Assembly (NCBI RefSeq): GCF_007859325.1 | Contig: NZ_VOHK01000001.1 | Coordinates: forward strand, 248,001 to 312,000 | Length of the DNA: 64,000 bases | Direction of reading: 5' to 3' | Origin: Luteimonas marina | GTDB taxonomy: Bacteria > Pseudomonadota > Gammaproteobacteria > Xanthomonadales > Xanthomonadaceae | Shown here: in pieces, positions 21,889 to 44,638 of the stretch | Layout of the letters: each line of letters opens with the position of its first letter | Numbering within the stretch: the first letter of the stretch is position 1 | Notes under the pieces: generated by a model | Told to the model about the DNA's origin: nothing | What the model saw: only the letters and a program-made list of their open reading frames with translations | Database searches by the model: none | Program-made: the position numbers and the translations under genes

Positions 21889-22344
21889 TCAGGGCGCCAC
21901 CACCACCTTGCCGCGCATCAGCGCCGAGTGGCCGGGGAAGGAGCAGAAGAAGCTGTACTCGCCGCCGGCCTTGAGCGCGCCACCGGGGATGGAGGCCGTC
22001 GCGCTCTCGCCGCCGCCGATCATCTTCGTCGCGCCCAGGACGCGCTTGTCGCCTGCCGGGAGATAACCGCTGGCGGCGCCGGCCTTGATGCCGTCCTTGG
22101 CGACGGCATCGGCGTCGGCGGAGGCGGTGACGACGATGTTGTGCCCCATGGCAGCGACCGGCAGCTTGCCGGTGTGCTGCAGTTCGAGGCTGATGCTCTT
22201 GCAGGCGGCCGAGACCGTGACCGTCTTCTGGTCGAACTGCATGTTGTCGCCGCCCTGGAGCTTGATCGTGCAGTTGGGCGCGGCCTGGACCAGGCCGGCG
22301 CAGCCGAGCAGGGCGAGGGCGAGCAGGGATTTGCGGATGTTCAT
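21889..22344 (-). CDS. azu: Azurin
   Basis: This 151-residue blue copper protein has a Sec signal peptide (MNIRKSLLALALLGCAGLVQA) and the type I copper ligands in order: His in MGHNIVVT, then Cys, His and Met in FFCSFPGHSALMRG. The N-terminal disulfide pair (NCTIKL ... ACKSISL) is present. Azurin carries electrons in the periplasm and can donate to copper nitrite reductase, which fits nirK at 43391-44560. An FNR-type box at 22418-22431 lies upstream; 41.5 bp from its centre gives a start at 22383 with GATCAT as -10 and a 39-nt leader. Confidence 0.97.
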   Translation of the reverse strand: MNIRKSLLALALLGCAGLVQAAPNCTIKLQGGDNMQFDQKTVTVSAACKSISLELQHTGKLPVAAMGHNIVVTASADADAVAKDGIKAGAASGYLPAGDKRVLGATKMIGGGESATASIPGGALKAGGEYSFFCSFPGHSALMRGKVVVAP

Positions 22345-22417: not shown

Positions 22418-22431
22418 TTGATCTGGATCAC
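22418..22431 (-). promoter_or_regulatory. FNR/Anr-type box for azurin
   Basis: TTGATctggATCAc matches TTGAT-N4-ATCAA at all but the last base. It lies between azurin and the divergent truncated haemoglobin. The -10 hexamer at the class II distance is good on the azurin side (GATCAT) and poor on the globin side. Confidence 0.75.
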
Positions 22432-30839: not shown

Positions 30840-32311
30840 GCCTGGCCTCCTGCGCGGGCCTGCGCAGGCGCGATGGCCTGGCTGGGGTCGGGGGGCAGCA
30901 CCGGCTGGTCGGCGGCGACCGCCTGTCCCATCCTGTAGGTCTTCCACATGTTCAATACCATCAGCAGCATGCCGGCCAGCACCACCACGCCGCCGAGCAG
31001 GCGCACGAAGTAGTAGGGGTAGGTGGCGTTGAGGGCTTCGACGAAGCTGTAGGTCAGCGTGCCGTCGTCGTTGGTGGCGCGCCACATCAGGCCCTGCATC
31101 ACGCCGGCGATCCACATCGAGGCGATGTACAGCACCACGCCGACGGTGTGCAGCCAGAAGTGGGTGTCGATCCACTTGGTCGAGTACATCTCGCGCAGGC
31201 CGAGCAGGCGCGGCAGCAGCGCGTAGATCGAGCCGATCGAGATCATCGCCACCCAGCCCAGCGCGCCGGCGTGGACGTGGCCGACCGTCCAGTCGGTGTA
31301 GTGCGACAGCGAGTTGACGGTCTTGATCGACATCATCGGCCCCTCGAAGGTGGCGATCATGTAGAAGCTGATCGCGACGATGAGGAACTTCAGGATCGGA
31401 TCGGTGCGCAGTTTGTGCCACACCCCCGACAGGGTCATGATGCCGTTCATCGCGCCGCCCCAGCTCGGCGCCAGCAGGATCAGCGAGAACACCATGCCCA
31501 CCGACTGCGCCCAGTCGGGCAGCGCGGTGTACTGCAGGTGGTGCGGGCCGGCCCACATGTACACCGCGATCAGCGCCCAGAAGTGCACGATCGACAGCCG
31601 GTAGGAGTACACCGGGCGCCCGGCCTGCTTGGGCACGAAGTAGTACATCATCCCGAGGAAACCCGCGGTCAGCAGGAAGCCGACCGCGTTGTGGCCGTAC
31701 CACCACTGCACCATCGCGTCGACGGCGCCGCTGTAGACCGGGTAGGACTTGGCCAGCCCGGACGGGATCGAGATGTTGTTGACGATGTGCAGCAGGGCGA
31801 TGGCGATGATGTAGGCGGCGTAGAACCAGTTGGCCACGTAGATGTGCTTGACCTTGCGGATCGCGATGGTGCCGAGGAACAGCACCGCGTAGGCCACCCA
31901 GACCACCGTGATCAGCAGGTCGATCGGCCACTCCAGCTCCGCGTATTCCTTGCCCTGGGTCCAGCCCAGCGGCAGGGTGATCGCGGCGGCCACGATCACC
32001 GCCTGCCAGCCCCAGAACACGAAGGCCGCCAGCTTGTCGGAGATCAGCCGCACGTGGCAGGTGCGCTGGACCACGTGCAGGCTGGTGGCGAACAGGGCGC
32101 AGCCGCCGAAGGCGAAGATCACCGCATTGGTGTGCAGCGGGCGCAGGCGGCCGTAGCTGAGCCAGGAAATGCCGTGGGTCAGGTCCGGCCAGTACAGCTG
32201 GGCGGCGATGACCACGCCCACCAGCATGCCGACCACGCCCCAGACCACGGTCATCACCGCGAACTGGCGCACCACCTTGTCGTTGTATGTCGTTGCCGCG
32301 GCCTGCTGCAT
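30836..32311 (-). CDS. ccoN: cbb3 oxidase catalytic subunit CcoN
   Basis: CcoN, 491 aa, is the high-affinity haem-copper oxidase core that reduces O2 under microaerobic conditions. It has about twelve helices. Metal-ligand histidines are in [43 protein letters not shown] (Cu-B His pair) and [13 protein letters not shown]. The cross-link Tyr region ([13 protein letters not shown]) is present. The start [11 protein letters not shown] at 32311 fits the family. A perfect FNR box is centred 67 bp upstream; the predicted -10 is TACCCT with a ~26-nt leader. Confidence 0.97.
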
Positions 32312-32371: not shown

Positions 32372-32385
32372 TTGATCTGGATCAA
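32372..32385 (-). promoter_or_regulatory. Perfect FNR/Anr box upstream of ccoN
   Basis: TTGATctggATCAA is an exact match to the TTGAT-N4-ATCAA consensus. A TACCCT hexamer at 32343-32348 (minus strand) lies at the -10 of a class II promoter. Confidence 0.9.
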
Positions 32386-32475: not shown

Positions 32476-32489
32476 TTGATCCGGGTCAA
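32476..32489 (+). promoter_or_regulatory. FNR/Anr-type box upstream of hemN
   Basis: TTGATccggGTCAA, one mismatch from consensus. Its centre is 42.5 bp before the A of the hemN ATG, and GATACT at 32512-32517 sits exactly at the -10. That gives a predicted transcription start one base before the ATG. Confidence 0.85.
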
Positions 32490-32524
32490 GGCGGGCCCCG
32501 GACGACCTTCGGATACTGCCGCCC

Positions 32525-33940
32525 ATGCAGACGAGCTCTCCCGTCATCCCCGAGCGGAACTGGCGTTTCGACGCCGGCCTGCTGCGCCGCTACGACCGGC
32601 CGGGGCCGCGCTACACCTCGTACCCGACCGCGCCGAACTTCGCCGAGGGTTTCGGCGAGGTCGATTTCCGCGACATCGCCCGGCGCAGCAACGAGGACCC
32701 GATCCCGCGCCAGATCTCGCTGTACGTGCACATCCCCTATTGCCAGAGCCCCTGCTTCTACTGCGGCTGCAACCGGGTCATCACCCGCGACGAGGCGAAG
32801 GGCCGCATCTACCTCGACCGCCTGCAGCGCGAGATCGCCCTGGTCGCGCCGCTGTTCGACCGCGACCGCGAAGTGGTGCAGCTGCACCTGGGCGGCGGCA
32901 CCCCCAACTTCCTCGCCCCGCGCCTGCTGGGCGAACTGGTCGGCAGCCTCGGCCGCCAGTTCAGCTTCAGCCACGCGCTGGACCGCGACTTCTCGATCGA
33001 GCTGGACCCGCGCTTCGTCACCCCGGCCGACGTCGAGGTGCTGTCGGCGATCGGCTTCAACCGCACCAGCCTCGGCGTGCAGGACTTCGATCCCGAAGTG
33101 CAGAAGGCGGTCAACCGCGAGCAGGGGATCGACGAAACCCTCGCCATCATCGACGCCTGCCGCCGCTTCGGCATGCGCTCGGTGAACGTCGACCTGATCT
33201 ACGGCCTGCCGAAGCAGACCCTGGCCGGCTTCGCGCGCACGCTCGACACCGTGATCGCCGCGCGTCCCGACCGGCTGGCGATCTACGGCTACGCGCACAT
33301 GCCGCGGCTGTTCAAGGCGCAGAAGCAGATCCGCGACGAGGACCTGCCGAGCGCCGAGGGCAAGCTCGCGCTGCTGGAGCTGGCGGTGCAGCGGCTGGGC
33401 GACGCCGGCTACGAATACATCGGCATGGACCACTTCGCGCTGCCCGGCGACGAGCTGGCCCGCGCCCAGCGCGAGGGCAGCCTGCACCGCAATTTCATGG
33501 GCTACACCACCCACGCCCAGACCGACCTGGTCGGCTTCGGCGTGAGCGCGATCAGCCACGTCGGCGACAGCTTCACCCAGAACCACCGCGACCTGCCGTC
33601 GTGGGAGGCCGCGGTCGACGCGGGGCGCCTGCCGATCTGGCGCGGCCTGATGCTGGGCAACGACGACGTGCTGCGCGCCGACCTGATCCAGCAGCTGATG
33701 TGCCGGGGCGAGATCGACGTACGTCGCGTGGAGAAGGCCTACGGCATCGATTTCGGCGAGTACTTCGCCGACGCGCTGGACGCGCTGCGCCCGCTGCAGG
33801 ACGACGGCCTGGTGCAGTGCCCGCCGGGAACGATCCGCGCCACGCCCCGCGGGCGCGCGCTGTTGCGTATCATTGCCATGTGCTTCGACCGGTATCTCGG
33901 GAATCCCGCGGAAGGAGTGCGCTATTCCCGGACCATCTGA
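32525..33940 (+). CDS. hemN: Oxygen-independent coproporphyrinogen III oxidase
   Basis: HemN, 471 aa, is the radical-SAM enzyme that decarboxylates coproporphyrinogen III without O2. The 4Fe-4S site is in YCQSPCFYCGCNRVI. LHLGGGTPNFL and SLGVQDFDPEVQKAVNREQ are typical, and the C-terminal HemN domain ends with ATPRGRALLRIIAMCFDRYL. The start region MQTSSPVIPERNWRFDAGLLRRYDRPGPRYTSYPTA fits E. coli HemN. The transcript is predicted to be essentially leaderless (see the FNR box at 32476). Confidence 0.97.
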   Translation: MQTSSPVIPERNWRFDAGLLRRYDRPGPRYTSYPTAPNFAEGFGEVDFRDIARRSNEDPIPRQISLYVHIPYCQSPCFYCGCNRVITRDEAKGRIYLDRLQREIALVAPLFDRDREVVQLHLGGGTPNFLAPRLLGELVGSLGRQFSFSHALDRDFSIELDPRFVTPADVEVLSAIGFNRTSLGVQDFDPEVQKAVNREQGIDETLAIIDACRRFGMRSVNVDLIYGLPKQTLAGFARTLDTVIAARPDRLAIYGYAHMPRLFKAQKQIRDEDLPSAEGKLALLELAVQRLGDAGYEYIGMDHFALPGDELARAQREGSLHRNFMGYTTHAQTDLVGFGVSAISHVGDSFTQNHRDLPSWEAAVDAGRLPIWRGLMLGNDDVLRADLIQQLMCRGEIDVRRVEKAYGIDFGEYFADALDALRPLQDDGLVQCPPGTIRATPRGRALLRIIAMCFDRYLGNPAEGVRYSRTI

Positions 33941-33962
33941 AGCGTCAGGCAGGACAGCAAGC

Positions 33963-34715
33963 GTGCGCGAGCCACCATTGACAGTGCTGTCCGGGACACC
34001 GATCGCGGACGACGGTGACGAATTCACCTTCTGCAGCACCTGCGCCTTCTCGGCGGCCTGCCTGTCGGAGGGCTACGACAAGAGCCAGCTGCGCGACCTG
34101 CACGTGCTGGTCGAGCACGTCGGCCCGTTCCGCGAAGGCGACCACGTCTTCCGCGAGGGCGATCCGTTCAACGCCATCGCCGCGGTGCGCGCCGGCACGG
34201 TCAAGACCTACGTCAACGACGCCAGCGGCCGCGAGCAGGTGCTGGGCTTCTTCCTGCCGGGCGAGGTGATCGGCCTCAACGCCATCGCCAGCTCGCGCTA
34301 TCCGTGCAACGCGGTGGCGCTGGACACGGTGACGCTGTGCCGGTTCTCGTTCCCGATGATGGCCACGCTCGCCAGCCGCATGCCCGGCCTGCAGCGGCAC
34401 CTGTTCAACCTGCTCAGCCAGGACATCGGCAAGGCCTCGCTGCTGTCGGGCAACTTCACCGCCGACGAACGCCTGGCCGCGTTCCTGGTGATGCTGTCGC
34501 GCCGCTTCGCCGAGCGCGGCTTCTCGCCGAACCGGATGCGGCTGACGATGGCGCGCACCGACATCGCCAACTACCTGCGCCTGGCGCCGGAAACGGTCAG
34601 CCGCGTCCTGCGCCGCCTGCAGGACGAAGGCGTGCTGAAGGTCGACCGCCGCGACATGGAGATCCTGCAGCCGGCCGTGCTGGACGAACTGGCCCACCAC
34701 GTCCTGCGCGACTGA
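33963..34715 (+). CDS. fnr: FNR/Anr-type oxygen-responsive regulator
   Basis: This 250-residue Crp/Fnr protein has the 4Fe-4S ligands of true FNR: Cys24, Cys27 and Cys33 in FCSTCAFSAACL and Cys115 in SSRYPCNAV. The effector domain carries REGDPFNAIAAVRAG and the HTH reads LAPETVSRVLRRLQDEG, whose ETVSR recognition helix binds TTGAT half-sites. It is thus the likely user of the seven boxes in this window. The GTG start at 33963 follows the hemN stop by 22 bp with an aggaca site, so it is cotranscribed with hemN and would be autoregulated. Confidence 0.95.
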   Translation: MREPPLTVLSGTPIADDGDEFTFCSTCAFSAACLSEGYDKSQLRDLHVLVEHVGPFREGDHVFREGDPFNAIAAVRAGTVKTYVNDASGREQVLGFFLPGEVIGLNAIASSRYPCNAVALDTVTLCRFSFPMMATLASRMPGLQRHLFNLLSQDIGKASLLSGNFTADERLAAFLVMLSRRFAERGFSPNRMRLTMARTDIANYLRLAPETVSRVLRRLQDEGVLKVDRRDMEILQPAVLDELAHHVLRD

Positions 34716-34725
34716 CCCGCTTTCG

Positions 34726-34764
34726 CTCCCTCCCCCGCTTGCGGGGGAGGGTTGGGGAGGGGGT
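34726..34764. repeat. Family F palindrome after fnr
   Basis: CTCCCTCCCCCGCTTGCGGG continuing into GGGAGGGTTGGGGAGGGGG; a strong hairpin between convergent fnr and the CopD-like gene, probably a terminator. Sister copies are at 35321 and 37833. Confidence 0.8.
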
Positions 34765-34805
34765 GCTTTTCGCGACGCAAGCAGGGGAGGCGCCAAACCC
34801 CTGCA

Positions 34806-35249
34806 TCACCAGCCCAGGTGGAACATCCCCTTGGCCAGCAGCACGATCCCCACCATGTGCCAGAACAGGCTCAGGTGCAGCCGGCGCGACACGCTGCCCA
34901 GCAGGCGCCCGCGCCGCTGCAGCCACATCGCGGTGGCGAAATGCCCGGCCACGCCCAGCGCCAGTGCGATCTTGAGCGTCAGCATCAGCGCGAACCCGCT
35001 GGAGAACGGCTGCGCCAGCGCCGCCCGGTACTGCCAGGCCATGCCGATCCCGCTGCCGTAGAGCACCAGCAGCACCCACGGCATGATCCGGCGCGCGCGC
35101 CGGCCGATGCCGGCCTCGACCAGGTGCATGGCGTTCTTCGGCACGTGCCGGCGCACCTTGTCGAGGATCAGCACCTCGAAGAACACCGTGCCCACGAACA
35201 GCAGCGCGGCGAACAGGTGCAGGAGTAGCAGGATGGCGTAAGGGCGCAT
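34806..35249 (-). CDS. CopD-like four-helix membrane protein
   Basis: The 147-residue protein has four membrane helices with conserved-looking histidines (ILLLLHLFAALLFVGTVFFEV; MPWVLLVLYGSGIGMAWQY; LKIALALGVAGHFATAMWL; LFWHMVGIVLLAKGMFHLGW). This resembles CopD-family and cytochrome-b-like small membrane proteins. A copper or haem role is inference. An FNR-type box is centred 44.5 bp upstream of its ATG, so it probably belongs to the low-oxygen regulon, again with almost no leader. Confidence 0.75.
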   Translation of the reverse strand: MRPYAILLLLHLFAALLFVGTVFFEVLILDKVRRHVPKNAMHLVEAGIGRRARRIMPWVLLVLYGSGIGMAWQYRAALAQPFSSGFALMLTLKIALALGVAGHFATAMWLQRRGRLLGSVSRRLHLSLFWHMVGIVLLAKGMFHLGW

Positions 35250-35286
35250 GGCAAGACCATGCTGATGTCGCGCGATTGGCGGTGCG

Positions 35287-35300
35287 ATGACCTGGATCAA
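35287..35300 (-). promoter_or_regulatory. FNR-type box upstream of the CopD-like gene
   Basis: On the minus strand TTGATccagGTCAT (two mismatches). A class II start would fall at 35252, three bases before the ATG at 35249, with CAGCAT as the -10. Confidence 0.65.
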
Positions 35301-35320
35301 GGGGAGCATTGGCGCGTTGG

Positions 35321-35370
35321 CCCCCACCCCAGCCCTCCCCCGCAAGCGGGGGAGGGTTGGGGTGGGGGTG
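35321..35370. repeat. Family F palindrome
   Basis: CCCCCACCCCAGCCCTCCCC ... GGGAGGGTTGGGGTGGGGG is a 50-bp near-perfect inverted repeat between the CopD-like gene and norB. Confidence 0.85.
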
Positions 35371-35461
35371 AGTCAGCGACAGTCCCCCATCAGCAAACCC
35401 GTAAAAAAGCACCCGGAAGAAGGACCCGTTCGAGGGCAGGCGACCACCGCCCGCCTTCGGC

Positions 35462-35475
35462 TTGACGCAGGTCAA
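35462..35475 (+). promoter_or_regulatory. FNR/Dnr-type box upstream of norB
   Basis: TTGACgcagGTCAA is a perfect palindrome of the TTGAC type. The class II start is 35510 with GACCAT (35498-35503) as the -10, which overlaps the upstream candidate ATG at 35502 and decides for the start at 35532. Confidence 0.85.
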
Positions 35476-35531
35476 GGTCGCCCGCACCCGCCCGCAAGAC
35501 CATGCCGCGGACCCTGCAAGAGGCCCGCAAG

Positions 35532-37814
35532 ATGAACTCCACACGCAAGCTCTGGACAGGATTGGCGATCCTGCTGCTCAGCTCCTTCGCCGTATTGCTC
35601 TGGGTGGGCAGCGAAGTCCACCGCCAGGCGCCGCCGATGCCCGAACGGGTGGTCTCCACCGACGGCAGCGTCGTCTACACCCGCGCCGACATCGAGACCG
35701 GCCGCCAGGTCTGGCAGTCGATCGGCGGCCAGCAGCTCGGCTCGATCTGGGGCCACGGCGCCTACGTCGCTCCCGACTGGGGCGCGGACTGGCTGCACCG
35801 CGAGGCCGAGGCGATCCTCGACCTCTGGGCGCAGCGCGAGCACGGGCTGGAGAGCTACAGGCAGCTCGACGCTCCCGCGCAGGCGGCCTACGCCAGCCGC
35901 GTGCAGGCGCTGCTGCGGCCCAACACCTGGGACGAGGCCTCGCAGACGATCACCCTCGATGCCGACCGCGTCGCGGCGATGCAGTCGGTGGCCGCGCACT
36001 ACACCAGCCTGTTCGGCAACGAACCGGACACCGCGGAACTGCGCGAAGCCTACGCCATGCGCAACAACACCGTGGGCACGCAGGAGCACCGCGAGGCGCT
36101 GACCGCGTTCTTCTGGTGGGCGGCGTGGGCGTCGGTGACCGAGCGTCCCGGACAGGAGATCAGCTACACCGCCAACTGGCCGGCCGACAAGCTGGTCGGC
36201 AACACGCCGCCGCCCAGCGCCTTCCTGTGGACGGTGTTCAGCGTGCTGTTCCTGATCGCCGGCGTGGCGCTGCTGGGCTGGCACTACGCGGTCAGCCACG
36301 GCGACGAGATGGTGCCGGTGCTGCCGAAGTCCGACCCGCTGGCGGGCATCACCGTCACGCCCTCGATGCGCGCCACGGCGAAGTACTTCTGGGTGGTGAT
36401 GGCGCTGTTCCTGGTGCAGATCCTGCTCGGCGCCACCACCGCGCACTACCAGGTGGAAGGGCAGGAGGCCTACGGCTTCGCGCTGGCGGAGATCCTGCCG
36501 TACTCGCTCACGCGTACCTGGCACACGCAGCTGGCGGTGCTGTGGATCGCGACCGCGTGGCTGGGCATGGGCCTGTACATCGGCCCGGCGATCTCCGGGC
36601 ACGAACCGCGGTTCCAGCGGCTGGGCGTGAACTTCCTGTGGGTCTGCCTGATCGTGATCGTGGTCGGTTCGTTCGCGGGCCAGTGGTTCGCGGTGATGCA
36701 GAAGCTGGGGCTGGCGAAGAACTTCTGGTTCGGCCACCAGGGCTGGGAGTACGTCGACATCGGCCGCTTCTGGCAGTGGTTCCTGTTCATCGGCCTGATG
36801 CTGTGGCTGACCCTGGTCGGGCGCGCGCTGTGGCCGGCGATCCGGAGCGGCGGCGAATCGAAGTCGATCGTCAGCCTGCTGTTCCTGTCGGTGGTGGCGA
36901 TCGGCATCTTCTACGCCGCCGGGCTGATGTGGGGCGAGCACACGCACCTGTCGATGGTCGAGTACTGGCGCTGGTGGGTGGTGCACCTGTGGGTGGAGGG
37001 CTTCTTCGAGGTGTTCGCGGTGGCGGTGATCGCCTTCCTGTTCACCCGCCTGGGGCTGCTGCAGGTGAAGTCGGCGACGATCGCGGTGCTGTTCGCGACC
37101 ATCGTGTTCATGGCCGGCGGCGTGCTCGGCACGCTGCACCACCTGTACTTCGCCGGCACGCCGACCGCGGTGATCGCCATCGGCGCCAGCTTCTCGGCGC
37201 TGGAGGTGGTGCCGCTGGCCTACGTTGGCTTCGAGGCCTACCACAGCTACAGGCTGGGCAAGGCCACGCCGTGGATGCAGAAGTACCGGTGGCCGATCAT
37301 GTTCTTCATCGCGGTCGCGTTCTGGAACCTCGTCGGCGCAGGGCTGTTCGGCTTCCTGATCAACCCGCCGCTGCCGCTGTACTACATGCAGGGCCTGAAC
37401 CTCACGCCGCTGCACGGGCACACCGCGCTGTTCGGGGTGTACGGCATGCTCGGCGTCGGCCTGATGCTGTTCTGCCTGCGCGGGCTGAAGCCGGACGTGG
37501 CCTGGAACGACCGCGCACTGAAGGTCTCGTTCTGGGCCTTCAACATCGGCCTGGCCGGGATGGCGCTGCTGACCCTGCTGCCGATCGGCGTGCTGCAGCT
37601 CAACGCCGCGCTCAAGCACGGCTACTGGTACGCTCGGTCGGCCGAGTTCATGCAGCAGCCGCTGATCGAGCTGCTGGTATGGCTGCGCGTGCCGGGCGAC
37701 ACGATCTTCAGCGTCGGCGCGCTGGCGCTGGCCTGGTTCATGCTGCGGCTGTGGATCGTGCCGAAGCGGCGGACGGTGGCGGCGGGCGAGCCCGCGGCGG
37801 AGACCGGCCTCTGA
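35532..37814 (+). CDS. norB: Quinol-dependent nitric oxide reductase (qNOR)
   Basis: NorB/NorZ, 760 aa, reduces NO to N2O. It is the long single-subunit form: a periplasmic N-terminal extension (residues ~30-220, TRADIETGRQVWQSIGGQQLGSIWGHGAYVAPDWGADW) replaces NorC, followed by about twelve helices of the haem-copper superfamily. Key regions are RTWHTQLAVLWIATAWLGMGLY, HLWVEGFFEVFAVAVIAFLF with the Fe-B glutamates, TLHHLYFAG and TPLHGHTALFGVYG. MNSTRK at 35532 is chosen because its -10 would contain the earlier ATG; AAGAGG precedes it. No norC is present. Confidence 0.96.
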   Translation: MNSTRKLWTGLAILLLSSFAVLLWVGSEVHRQAPPMPERVVSTDGSVVYTRADIETGRQVWQSIGGQQLGSIWGHGAYVAPDWGADWLHREAEAILDLWAQREHGLESYRQLDAPAQAAYASRVQALLRPNTWDEASQTITLDADRVAAMQSVAAHYTSLFGNEPDTAELREAYAMRNNTVGTQEHREALTAFFWWAAWASVTERPGQEISYTANWPADKLVGNTPPPSAFLWTVFSVLFLIAGVALLGWHYAVSHGDEMVPVLPKSDPLAGITVTPSMRATAKYFWVVMALFLVQILLGATTAHYQVEGQEAYGFALAEILPYSLTRTWHTQLAVLWIATAWLGMGLYIGPAISGHEPRFQRLGVNFLWVCLIVIVVGSFAGQWFAVMQKLGLAKNFWFGHQGWEYVDIGRFWQWFLFIGLMLWLTLVGRALWPAIRSGGESKSIVSLLFLSVVAIGIFYAAGLMWGEHTHLSMVEYWRWWVVHLWVEGFFEVFAVAVIAFLFTRLGLLQVKSATIAVLFATIVFMAGGVLGTLHHLYFAGTPTAVIAIGASFSALEVVPLAYVGFEAYHSYRLGKATPWMQKYRWPIMFFIAVAFWNLVGAGLFGFLINPPLPLYYMQGLNLTPLHGHTALFGVYGMLGVGLMLFCLRGLKPDVAWNDRALKVSFWAFNIGLAGMALLTLLPIGVLQLNAALKHGYWYARSAEFMQQPLIELLVWLRVPGDTIFSVGALALAWFMLRLWIVPKRRTVAAGEPAAETGL

Positions 37815-37832
37815 CGGGGCCGGCGCCCATGC

Positions 37833-37854
37833 CTTCCCCCGCCCGCGGGGGAAG
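37833..37854. repeat. Family F short palindrome after norB
   Basis: CTTCCCCCGC followed by CCGCGGGGGAAG forms a perfect hairpin 18 bp after the norB stop; a likely terminator or attenuator before the next gene. Confidence 0.75.
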
Positions 37855-37902
37855 AGCCTGCCCTGAGCGTAGCCGAAGGCACGAAAAAAACGGGAGAGGA
37901 CG

Positions 37903-38160
37903 ATGTCCGGGAACAAGCGCATCGACATCGACGTCAATCCGGTCGTGGAGATCGACGGCGCCTTCGTGGCGCAGGGCCTGGGCCTGGAGGTCGCGGAGTT
38001 CCAGCGGCTGATGGAGTCGCACGGGATTTCGATCCTGTGCGAACGCGGCACCGGCGAGGACGAAGGCCTGTACCGCGCGAGCTTCTACCACGGCGACCGC
38101 CGCGTGCGCCTGGTCGTCGACCGCAACGGTGCCCCCGTCGATCCACGCCACAAACTGTAG
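37903..38160 (+). CDS. DUF6522-like small soluble protein
   Basis: The 85-residue protein (MSGNKRIDIDVNPVVEIDGAF...) has no membrane segment and one Cys (SILCERGTGEDEG). I place it tentatively with the DUF6522 family seen near NO-related genes. Its function is unknown. It lies between norB and nnrS on the same strand. Its TAG stop is the first triplet of a family D repeat. Confidence 0.7.
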   Translation: MSGNKRIDIDVNPVVEIDGAFVAQGLGLEVAEFQRLMESHGISILCERGTGEDEGLYRASFYHGDRRVRLVVDRNGAPVDPRHKL

Positions 38161-38228
38161 GAGCGCCTTCAGGCGCAACCATCCGACGGGCGCGTCGAAC
38201 GTCCGGTCGCGGCTGAAGCCGCTCCTAC
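38157..38228. repeat. Paired inverted repeat, family D, supplying a stop codon
   Basis: GTAGGAGCGCCTTCAGGCGC and the inverse GCGGCTGAAGCCGCTCCTAC flank a ~32-bp centre. The stop TAG (38158-38160) of the preceding gene lies inside its left end. Confidence 0.9.
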
Positions 38229-38259
38229 AGGGAAGGGTCGGTGCCGATTCCAACCCGCA

Positions 38260-38358
38260 TGTCATTCCGAACCCGCGAAGCGGGTGAGGAATCTCCTGTC
38301 CGGCCATGTCCGCACGGTGCGGGCACGGCAGAGCCCTCGCCTGCGGCTCGGGATGACA
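38260..38358. repeat. Diverged family C repeat
   Basis: TGTCATTCCGAACCCGCGAA ... CTGCGGCTCGGGATGACAG with diverged arms and a second GC-rich hairpin between. It fills much of the gap before nnrS. Confidence 0.6.
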
Positions 38359-38449
38359 GGCAAAGCGCCTGACGGCGTTCGCGGCGACAGGCCGCCGAGC
38401 GTGCTCGATCAACAGCCGCGGCAATCCTCCGGCCAGCGGCGCCCGCGAC

Positions 38450-38463
38450 TTGACCTGCGTCAA
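38450..38463 (+). promoter_or_regulatory. FNR/Dnr-type box upstream of nnrS
   Basis: TTGACctgcGTCAA. Its centre is 42.5 bp before the ATG at 38499, the same distance as at hemN. GAAGAT at 38486-38491 is the -10 candidate. Confidence 0.8.
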
Positions 38464-38498
38464 CGCCCGAAGCGCTCCCTTCGACGAAGATGCCGGGC

Positions 38499-39722
38499 AT
38501 GACGACGCCCGCTCCCGCGCCTTCTCCGAGCCTGCTGGCCGCCGCCCCGCACCGGCTGATGTTCTTCATCGGCGCCGGCAACGTGCTGCTGGCGATGGCA
38601 TGGTGGGCGGCCTGGCTGGCCGCGCAGCGTTGGCCGGGGCTGCTGCAGGTGCCGCAGGCGGCGACGTATCCCGGCTGGCTGCACGCTTTCGTGATGCAGT
38701 ACCAGGTGCTGCCCAGCTTCTTCTTCGGCTTCCTGCTGACGGTGTTCCCGCGCTGGATGGGCCTGCCCGAGGTGCCGCGCTGGCGCTATGTGCCGGTGGG
38801 CGTGGGCATGTTCGGCGGGCAGGCGATGATGCTGCTCGGCGCGCTGGGGCTGGAGGTGGCGCTGGTCGTGGGCCTGTTCATGACGCTGGCGGGGTGGGGC
38901 AGCGGCGTGTGGATCCTCGGCCGGCTGGTGCTGGCCGAGCGCGGCCGCACCTGGCACGCGCGCTCGTGCTTCGCGGCGATGCTGCTGGGGCTGGCCGGCG
39001 TGCTCTGTTTCGGCCTGTTCCTCGCCACCGGCTCGCCGTGGTGGGTGCTGGGCGGGATCAAGCTCGGCACCTTCGGTCTGCTGTTGCCGGTGTACCTGAC
39101 CGTCGCGCACCGGATGTTCCCGTTCTTCGCCGGCAACGCGGTGCCCGGCTACGTCGCATGGCGGCCGATGTGGGTGCTGGCCGCGGTCTGGCTGCTGGCG
39201 ATGGCGCACCTGGTGCTGGAACTGCTGCACGCCTACGGATGGTTGTGGCTGGTGGACCTGCCGATGCTGGCGCTCTCGCTGTACGTGCTGTGGCGCTGGT
39301 GGCCGCGCGGCGCCGCGCCGGGGCTGCTGTGGGTGCTGTTCGTCGGCCTGCTGTGGTGGCCGGTGACGTTCCTGCTGTTCTCGGCGCAGAGCCTGGTGTT
39401 TCTCGGATCGGACGAGTTCCTGCTCGGCCGCGCGCCGGCGCACGCATTGTTCATCGGCCTGTTCGGCAGCCTGCTGGTGGCGATGGTGAGCCGGGTGACG
39501 CAGGGCCACTCCGGGCGGCCGCTGAGGATGTACGGCCTGGCCTGGTTCGCCTTCGTCGGCATCCAGGCGGTCGCGGCGATGCGAATCGCCGCCGAGGTGA
39601 TGCCCGACGTGCTGCTGTGGCAGGCGCTGTCGGCGATCGGCTGGCTGCTGGTGCTGTCGCCGTGGGTGCTGCGGATCGGCGCGATCTACCTGTCGCCGCG
39701 CGTGGACGGCAAGCCTGGATGA
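38499..39722 (+). CDS. nnrS: NnrS-family membrane haem-copper protein
   Basis: NnrS, ~407 aa with about twelve helices, protects against NO and is induced in NO-handling regulons. Family features include the N-terminal HRLMFFIGAGNVLLAMAWWAAW, MQYQVLPSFFFGFLLTVFPRWMG, KLGTFGLLLPVYLTVAHRMFPFFAGNAVPG and VSRVTQGHSGRPL. The start could be ATG 38490 or 38499. The latter is chosen because it reproduces the hemN box-to-ATG spacing; that choice also implies a leaderless transcript. Confidence 0.95.
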   Translation: MTTPAPAPSPSLLAAAPHRLMFFIGAGNVLLAMAWWAAWLAAQRWPGLLQVPQAATYPGWLHAFVMQYQVLPSFFFGFLLTVFPRWMGLPEVPRWRYVPVGVGMFGGQAMMLLGALGLEVALVVGLFMTLAGWGSGVWILGRLVLAERGRTWHARSCFAAMLLGLAGVLCFGLFLATGSPWWVLGGIKLGTFGLLLPVYLTVAHRMFPFFAGNAVPGYVAWRPMWVLAAVWLLAMAHLVLELLHAYGWLWLVDLPMLALSLYVLWRWWPRGAAPGLLWVLFVGLLWWPVTFLLFSAQSLVFLGSDEFLLGRAPAHALFIGLFGSLLVAMVSRVTQGHSGRPLRMYGLAWFAFVGIQAVAAMRIAAEVMPDVLLWQALSAIGWLLVLSPWVLRIGAIYLSPRVDGKPG

Positions 39723-43390: not shown

Positions 43391-44560
43391 CTACTTCGCG
43401 ACCGGCAGCGACAGATCGGTGTCCGGCTTGATCGCCCCGACCGGCGAAGGCGTCGTCATCAGGTCGTGGTTCCACTTGTCGCCGTCGACCTTGATGTGCG
43501 CGGCCGCGCCGAGCAGTACCGCCTCGATCAGGTTGTGGTTGAGGTACACGTGCAGGCCGGGCTGGTGGAAGGTGTACAGCGCCGCGCCCGCCGAGCCGCC
43601 GCGGATGAACCAGGTCTCGAGGTCCTTGAGCGGGGCGTTGTTGAACTTGCCTTCTTCCCACACGTAGTCGCCGTGGCCGCCGATCAGGTGCGGACGGGTA
43701 TCGCGGTTGGCCTGCGAGTGCACCAGCAGCAGCGTCTCGCCGACCTTGCTGGTCATCGCGTTGTCGCCGGCCAGCGCGCCGACGGCGCCGTTGAAGACGA
43801 TGTGCGAAGGCACCAGCCCCTTCATCGCGGCGAGCGTGTCGGGCAGCGATTCGGCGTGCGAGGCGTAGGACTTGAAGTTGCCGTTGGCGTCGCGCGGGAT
43901 GTAGAACTCGGTCTCGCCGACGTAATAGGCGCGGTCGTAGCGCAGCGGCTTGCCGTCGCCGTCCTTCAGGCCGTCGCGCGGCAGCACCATGATCGTGCCG
44001 TGCATGCCGGCGACCACGTGCCACGGCGTCATCGGGCCGCCCGGGGCGCAGTGGTAGACGAAGGTGCCCGGGCGCGTGGCCTTCCAGCGCAGGGTGACTT
44101 CCTCGCCGGGCTGGATGACGGTCAGGTCGCCGCCGCCGAGCGCGCCGGTCGCGGCGTGGAAGTCGATGTTGTGCGGCATCGCGTTGCTGGCGAGGTTGAC
44201 CAGGGTCACTTCGACGTAGTCGCCCTCGTGCACCACCATCAGCGGGCCGGGGATCGAGCCGCCGAAGGTCATCGCGTGCATCTTCGTGCCTTCGCCGTCG
44301 ATCACGATTTCCTCCTCGACAATCGGCAGGGTGAACTGCACCACCTTCGGCCCGCCTTTGGCGACCTGGTCGTGGTCGTGGACGAACGGCGGCCGCTTGA
44401 GCTGGACCTGCTGGCGGGGCAGGGCGGCCAGGTCGGAGGCCTGGTCGAGGGTCGCGTTGACGAGTTCGAGCGCGTCGACGGCGTGCGCGGGCGAGGGTGC
44501 GCCGGCGGCGGCCGCGAGCGCGAGGGCCGATGCCAGTACGCTTGTCTGCAGCAGTTTCAT
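43391..44560 (-). CDS. nirK: Copper-containing nitrite reductase
   Basis: NirK, 389 aa, reduces nitrite to NO in the periplasm. A signal peptide ([20 protein letters not shown] ... AHA) precedes two cupredoxin domains. Type 1 copper ligands are in [10 protein letters not shown] (His), YHCAPGG (Cys) and [11 protein letters not shown] (His, Met). Type 2 ligands are the second His of MPHNIDFH, the His of YHC and the His in [13 protein letters not shown]; catalytic Asp is in HNIDFH and His in [12 protein letters not shown]. No fused cytochrome or extra cupredoxin. The -10 CACGAT and 30-nt leader follow from the box at 44625. Confidence 0.97.
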
Positions 44561-44624: not shown

Positions 44625-44638
44625 TTGATCGAGATCAA
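44625..44638 (-). promoter_or_regulatory. Perfect FNR/Anr box, nirK promoter-proximal
   Basis: TTGATcgagATCAA is an exact consensus match. A class II start is predicted at 44590, with CACGAT (minus strand, 44597-44602) as the -10 and ggagcctccc as the ribosome site before the ATG at 44560. Confidence 0.9.

Follow-up and report, generated by a model that had tools for sequence, protein, structure and literature searches.

Predicted leaderless hemN and nnrS transcripts within an FNR-type regulon of Luteimonas marina and its relatives

FNR boxes and genes of the locus

The stretch of Luteimonas marina DNA considered here, 64,000 nucleotides in length and termed the window, harbours 19 FNR boxes of the pattern TTGAY-N4-RTCAA (TTGAT-N4-ATCAA type) when up to one mismatch is allowed. 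This number compares with 4.68 expected and is reached in none of 100 shuffles; across the whole genome, 22 exact boxes are present against one for the reversed control pattern. Within the window, exact cores are found at hemN, nnrS and norB.

The gene hemN, encoding oxygen-independent coproporphyrinogen III oxidase (32525..33940, + strand; TIGR00538, 556.5 bits against a cut-off of 324.95), is preceded by the FNR box TTGATCCGGGTCAA (32476..32489, +) and by the −10 element GATACT (32512..32517, +). Position 32525 is the one start codon available to the window gene ahead of the conserved motif; further upstream, a reading-frame check revealed no ATG, GTG or TTG start. Beside hemN lies a gene for an Fnr-like regulator (33963..34715, +; GTG start assumed), which scores 188.3 bits with NF008365, below the cut-off of 228. 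It carries the cluster cysteines, with a C-x2-C-x5-C arrangement and one more Cys at 115, and has ETVSR as its helix motif.

At the nnrS gene (PF05940; 38499..39722, +), the box TTGACCTGCGTCAA (38450..38463, +) has an exact core and is followed by the −10 element GAAGAT (38486..38491, +). A correction applies to this start: an alternative in-frame ATG at 38490 lies inside the −10, at a distance of 33.5 bp from the box, and also occurs in the three nearest loci of the same genus (L032–L034). The predicted leaderless start at 38499 is favoured because most of the other nnrS loci compared that have a box carry their ATG at 41.5–43.5 bp and lack this decoy, which could be used if the RNA starts upstream.

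A CopD-like protein (gene at 34806..35249, − strand) matched neither a Pfam nor an NCBIfam profile at E 0.001; the box of its gene has one mismatch (35287..35300, −), with the −10 CAGCAT at 35264–35259. Four further genes complete the set. The norB box (35462..35475, +) and −10 GACCAT (35498–35503) precede norB (35532..37814, +). The box of ccoN, whose ATG is at 32311, lies at 32372..32385 (−). The proximal box of nirK, a gene recognized by TIGR02376 with its ATG at 44560, occupies 44625..44638 (−), and azurin (ATG at 22344) has an FNR-like box with one mismatch (22418..22431, −) and the −10 GATCAT in register.

Box-to-ATG geometry in the window

The sequence-only reading of this DNA had placed the box centre 42.5 bp before the ATG of hemN and nnrS and 44.5 bp before that of the CopD-like gene, and re-measurement returned the same values. 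The corresponding distances are 63.5 bp for norB, 67.5 bp for ccoN, 71.5 bp for nirK and 80.5 bp for azurin. With transcription starting 41.5 bp past the box centre, the predicted leaders amount to 1 nt for hemN and nnrS and 3 nt for the CopD-like gene, in agreement with the start sites proposed earlier, and to 22, 26, 30 and 39 nt for norB, ccoN, nirK and azurin, respectively. The three −10 elements named in that reading (GATACT, GAAGAT, CAGCAT) are all in register, so that its observation on the geometry of box, −10 and ATG is confirmed. Its further statement, that the leaders of 22–39 nt contain ribosome sites, stands for the lengths and for norB, where a Shine-Dalgarno-like AAGAGG is present; it needs correcting for ccoN, whose window leader has no clear Shine-Dalgarno site and whose −10 (TACCCT) has to be shifted by 1 bp to fit.

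Conservation of spacing among relatives

The hemN sample comprised 147 rows from Xanthomonadaceae and near relatives, with L098–L124 left out. Starts were scored by a permissive rule, accepting any in-frame ATG 40.5–44.5 bp from the box centre, and by a blind rule, under which the start was chosen without the box. A spaced ATG was present in 143 of 147 hemN rows by the former and 136 by the latter, and one further row has a GTG at 40–45 bp. Free drift of the distance among relatives, the outcome set against the original proposal, thus did not occur. Within the family of the window, 81 of 82 rows and all 27 sampled genera fit; among rows labelled Lysobacteraceae the score is 60/60 (15 genera, plus nine rows with no genus given), and 20 lower-ranking rows of the family, 16 of them DNA new to the analysis, fit without exception.

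The pattern for nnrS is less uniform: the spaced ATG, always an ATG at this register, occurs in 64 of 84 rows by the permissive rule and 45 by the blind one. The arrangement is absent in 20 rows, 17 of which have no box at 150 bp or less from the chosen start. A search of the genus for further leaderless FNR targets, with box-N34–37-ATG as pattern, matched 18 of 21 genomes; in the 30 such loci read, some of them duplicates, the frames resembling the query proteins of the window are hemN or nnrS. Leaderless spacing is found in 0/84 norB rows by the permissive or the box-blind rule, although these rows come mostly from the same clusters as those of hemN and nnrS, and in 0/17 ccoN rows by the same permissive rule. 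The division into leadered and leaderless members proposed from the window therefore recurs in relatives, and the interpretation offered in the sequence-only reading is supported, with different translation under anoxia as a possible further step. The CopD-like gene is not upheld as a third firm leaderless member: its geometry in the window is as described, and an ATG 41.5–44.5 bp from a box occurs in 8 of the 30 loci examined, among them that of the window.

Among 26 hemN rows from other families of the class, 12 show a longer, leadered distance, 11 have no usable box and three are leaderless. Parsimony on a FastTree tree, in which many rows are partial or long-branched, requires at least nine changes between the leaderless and leadered states. 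These changes and the three matching rows from other families indicate that the leaderless trait was not one clean switch, and an origin in a single step is not supported.

A common promoter register

The −10 element (xAxxxT) occupies one box-relative register in 132/143 hemN, 58/64 nnrS and 68/75 norB rows, compared with 0–4% at 21 other offsets from the box. This register is common to hemN, nnrS, norB and ccoN of the relatives; hemN, nnrS and norB therefore all have the appearance of class II FNR promoters and differ in nothing but how far the start codon lies from the box. Immediately before the ATG stands a C in 93% of hemN rows and 97% of nnrS rows. For ccoN, Shine-Dalgarno motifs were counted in 6 of 12 rows, a sample too small to use. 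Double leaderless promoters, with a single box and a spaced ATG on both sides, were considered and rejected: in all five seen, one side has no in-register −10.

Proposed mechanism and alternatives

It is proposed, with a probability of roughly 87%, that hemN and nnrS are each read from a class II FNR promoter and that transcription begins right at the start codon. The TTGAY-N4-RTCAA box would be bound by an Fnr-type dimer, and RNA polymerase would use the −10, with its A and T 30.5 and 34.5 bp away from the centre of the box. The RNA would begin 6–8 bp past this element. In a refinement of the earlier start, its first base is probably the A of the AUG itself, predicted for hemN at 32525 (or 32524). 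An mRNA with a 5′-terminal AUG and no Shine-Dalgarno site would need to follow a leaderless translation route. In the window, the norB, nirK and azurin promoters share the same register, and ccoN does so with a 1-bp shift, but their predicted leaders measure 22–39 nt. The sequences themselves show the boxes, the −10 register, the spacing, the scarcity of Shine-Dalgarno motifs and the conservation, whereas FNR activation, the mRNA 5′ end and the translation route are inferred.

It is improbable that the boxes repress, or that hemN and nnrS are read from a promoter further upstream, with leadered mRNAs and a box-to-ATG distance caused otherwise. A second FNR box does lie 104 bp upstream of the hemN box of the window, but no −10 is in register towards hemN, the hexamer there being CAAGGC. 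Shine-Dalgarno motifs are nearly absent (4/143 hemN and 0/64 nnrS rows, against 69/75 for norB), and the conserved −10 sits at the activator register.

Somewhat less probable again is a spacing inherited by common descent alone, without selection. The rows are related and sequences within a genus are close, yet spacer identity is at the level expected from composition (0.353 versus 0.340 for hemN, 0.348 versus 0.333 for nnrS): the length of the spacer is held while its sequence drifts. On the HemN tree of 184 rows the spacing changes at least 58 times within 40.5–44.5 bp, although staying inside is partly by construction, the rows counted as leaderless having been selected by a 40–45 window. 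The norB distance, by comparison, varies from 58.5 to 69.5 bp in 76 of 84 rows.

The least probable alternative, an internal translation start that would make the first part of the frame an artefact and the true mRNA leadered, could draw on the 70 of 147 hemN rows that, with a spaced ATG, have another in-frame ATG, GTG or TTG up- or downstream, but it is opposed by the 77 rows with one possible start before the conserved motif, 73 of which have an ATG at 40–45 bp, and by profile alignments that begin at residue 15 of HemN (TIGR00538) and residue 13 of NnrS (PF05940).

Implications and known systems

Low oxygen and nitric oxide are the conditions in which hemN and nnrS are both expected to be active, and nitric oxide had less effect on a leaderless reporter than on a Shine-Dalgarno one in Mycobacterium tuberculosis (PMC8485053). 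A tentative and rather unlikely extension is that, in Xanthomonadaceae and close families, selection divides the FNR regulon by mode of translation, with hemN, nnrS and, in part, the CopD-like gene kept leaderless so that their translation goes on while anoxia or nitric oxide lowers initiation at Shine-Dalgarno sites. If true, this would place a second switch, at the level of the ribosome, within a single transcription regulon. Boxes of one kind, one promoter register and, often, a single gene cluster give rise to predicted leaderless (hemN, nnrS) and leadered (norB, ccoN) mRNAs, a state kept over many genera: these genes form a natural matched set for the question of why some bacterial genes stay leaderless. 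They also provide exact start-site predictions and a warning on start-codon annotation.

In class II FNR/CRP promoters the activator is centred ∼41.5 bp before the start, the −10 is in its usual place and a leader usually follows; hemN and nnrS have the same placing of activator and −10, and differ in that their start codon falls on the predicted transcription start. In phage lambda, PRM-cI is an activator-dependent promoter whose transcript begins at the AUG. It serves a phage repressor gene, whereas the bacterial regulon of hemN and nnrS has predicted leadered as well as leaderless members.

A literature search found no earlier report of an FNR regulon split into leadered and leaderless members. 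The Anr core regulon of Pseudomonas includes hemN as a core Fnr-type target, beside the regulator gene in some species, and the word leaderless is absent from the available portion of that text (PMC6588701); the comparison of leadered and leaderless hemN made here draws instead on the 26 rows from other families of the class. The accessible part of a paper on nitrogen-oxide regulons (PMC1274295) contains neither leaderless nor Xanthomonas and nothing decisive, and that of PMC12340547 covers leaderless genes in Deinococcus-Thermus, again with nothing decisive.

Zheng et al. (2011; PMC3160421) had already predicted leaderless genes in Xanthomonadales, and their account, as far as it was accessible, describes genes that resemble hemN and nnrS in having a TANNNT −10 ∼12 bp before the start codon. 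That study deals with whole genomes; here an activator box fixes the start within one regulon, and the layout persists across many genera in two named genes but not in their co-regulated neighbours. Other genes in the loci examined have TANNNT 6 nt before the first ATG in 28 of 617 cases, against 0–9 at other offsets, an excess which suggests that leaderless starts are general in these genomes.

Spacing between FNR box and start codon

The predicted leaderless FNR genes constitute a real sequence pattern, which is conserved and specific to particular genes. The sequence-only reading had proposed that hemN, nnrS and a CopD-like gene are FNR controlled and leaderless, with norB, ccoN, nirK and azurin carrying leaders. 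Its distances from box centre to ATG were correct: 42.5 bp for both hemN and nnrS, 44.5 bp for the CopD-like gene, 63.5 bp for norB, 67.5 bp for ccoN, 71.5 bp for nirK and 80.5 bp for azurin. A second in-frame ATG of nnrS (window 38490) is located within the −10, 33.5 bp from the box centre. Likewise, norB harbours an in-frame ATG at window 35502, 33.5 bp from its box centre and within its −10, and comparable in-frame ATGs occur in hemN of relatives L406–L408 and L413. Gene callers that select the first ATG would overextend these proteins.

One proposed check was conservation of this spacing in relatives. Regions upstream of hemN, nnrS, norB and ccoN were gathered from the family (Xanthomonadaceae) and from named genomes, the nearest being Luteimonas saliphila (91%); for hemN, the class and order were also sampled. 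Two rules served to assign starts. The blind rule ignored the box and took the closest ATG on the upstream side of a conserved residue; the permissive rule admitted every in-frame ATG and every box of at most one mismatch. After duplicate removal the hemN set comprised 173 rows, 26 of which (L098–L124) derive from other families of the class. Under the blind rule, 138 rows fell at 40.5–44.5 bp, 25 elsewhere and 10 had no box within 150 bp; to these last two groups L098–L124 contribute 16 and eight rows, respectively. The other nine displaced rows include eight with an alternative ATG at 40–45 bp, L236 being the one without. When L098–L124 are set aside, the spacing held in 136 of 147 rows (blind) and 143 of 147 (permissive). 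As the family rows fetched first were the best-scoring ones, 20 lower-ranking family hemN rows were added (16 new DNA, four already in the named set), and all 20 show an ATG at 40.5–42.5 bp.

For nnrS, 45 of 84 rows lay at 41.5–44.5 bp, 22 elsewhere and 17 lacked a box under the blind rule; the permissive rule placed 64 at leaderless spacing. Neither rule placed any of the 84 norB or 17 ccoN rows at 40–45 bp: norB distances are 58.5–69.5 bp in 76 rows and ccoN distances 61.5–67.5 bp in 11.

Promoter register and predicted transcription start

Rows chosen for distances of 40–45 bp (hemN, nnrS) or 55–75 bp (norB, ccoN) were aligned on the box centre. All four genes display an A at +30.5 and a T at +34.5 in 91–93% of rows. 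The two bases occur jointly in 132/143 hemN, 58/64 nnrS and 68/75 norB rows, compared with 0–4% at 21 other offsets; judged by its position, this pair is the predicted −10 element of a class II promoter whose box is centred at −41.5. When a 1-bp shift is allowed, the −10 is found in 142/143 hemN and 64/64 nnrS rows. The ATG follows it after 6–8 nt in every one of these hemN rows; of the nnrS rows, 60 share that interval, three have 9 nt and one has 5 nt. The base preceding the ATG is C in 93% of hemN and 97% of nnrS rows, suggesting that the A of the ATG is likely to be the first nucleotide of both RNAs. Since C is also common at this position in norB (81%), the point is no more than suggestive. 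The earlier proposal of a 1-nt leader is refined in this way to a likely start at the A. Shine–Dalgarno tetramers are present in 4/143 hemN and 0/64 nnrS rows versus 69/75 norB and 6/12 ccoN rows. Identity in the hemN spacer is at chance level (0.353 versus 0.340).

Taxonomic distribution

Leaderless hemN spacing was found in 81 of 82 sampled rows of the window's family, covering all 27 sampled genera; the named Lysobacteraceae show it in 60/60 rows (15 genera). Elsewhere in the order the families differ, with 27 leaderless rows, 17 leadered and 11 without a usable box: f172 (3/3), f181 (5/6) and f182 (15/16) are leaderless, f175, f176 and f178–f180 are together leadered in 13/13 rows, and f173, f174 and f177 are mixed or without a box. 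Among the best-scoring rows from other families of the class, three are leaderless, 12 leadered and 11 without a usable box. The median distance from box to the conserved RYDRP motif is 83.5 in leaderless rows versus 130.5 in 16 other-family rows. On a FastTree HemN tree of 238 rows, 48 of them less than half filled, the minimum number of changes is 58 for spacing, counted over the 184 leaderless rows, and nine for the leaderless/leadered state. Fifteen nnrS rows from other families of the class comprise one at 43.5 bp, one nearer, five at 60.5–70.5 bp and eight boxless within 160 bp.

FNR boxes in the window and genome

The window contains 19 boxes of the form TTGAN6TCAA (up to one mismatch) versus 4.68 expected, an excess. 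The exact pattern TTGAY-N4-RTCAA occurs 22 times in the genome and its reverse once. Seven of the 22 share the palindromic core TTGATAAGCGTCAA or near variants (contigs C15, C16, C17 and C19; loci L071–L075, L329 and L332). These sites match the pattern but are disfavoured as FNR sites: a −10 in register is absent from all four inspected, the remaining three being left out as their flanks are identical. The seven resemble, and probably are, a dispersed repeat.

Functional reading

Start-site maps of Xanthomonas exist, and are absent among the literature matches listed. No paper linking leaderless transcripts, FNR and hemN was found, and titles and abstract openings among those matches do not name a leaderless/leadered split of the FNR regulon, most subscription journals lying outside coverage. 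Published reports link YchF and IF3 to leaderless translation under stress in Escherichia coli (PMC8138138) and describe a smaller effect of nitric oxide on a leaderless reporter in Mycobacterium tuberculosis (PMC8485053); they make a translational role of the split possible.

Probable leaderless starts in other genes, and the CopD-like gene

Among 617 other genes (named loci L165–L244 plus the window, query window proteins excluded; many mutually homologous), 28 have TANNNT 6 nt upstream of the first ATG, a sharp peak compared with 0–9 at other offsets. This peak suggests that these genomes probably use leaderless starts as a general, if minor, mode, consistent with Zheng et al. 2011 (PMC3160421), and points to further leaderless genes in the family.

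The CopD-like protein (window 34806–35249) has no match in Pfam or NCBIfam at E 0.001. Relatives at E ≤ 1e-8 occur in 31 of 247 family genomes, and leaderless spacing is seen at eight of 30 loci. By eye, two copies of a GC-rich repeat (ccctcccccgc...gcgggggaggg type) flank the gene at about window 34725–34775 and 35323–35370.
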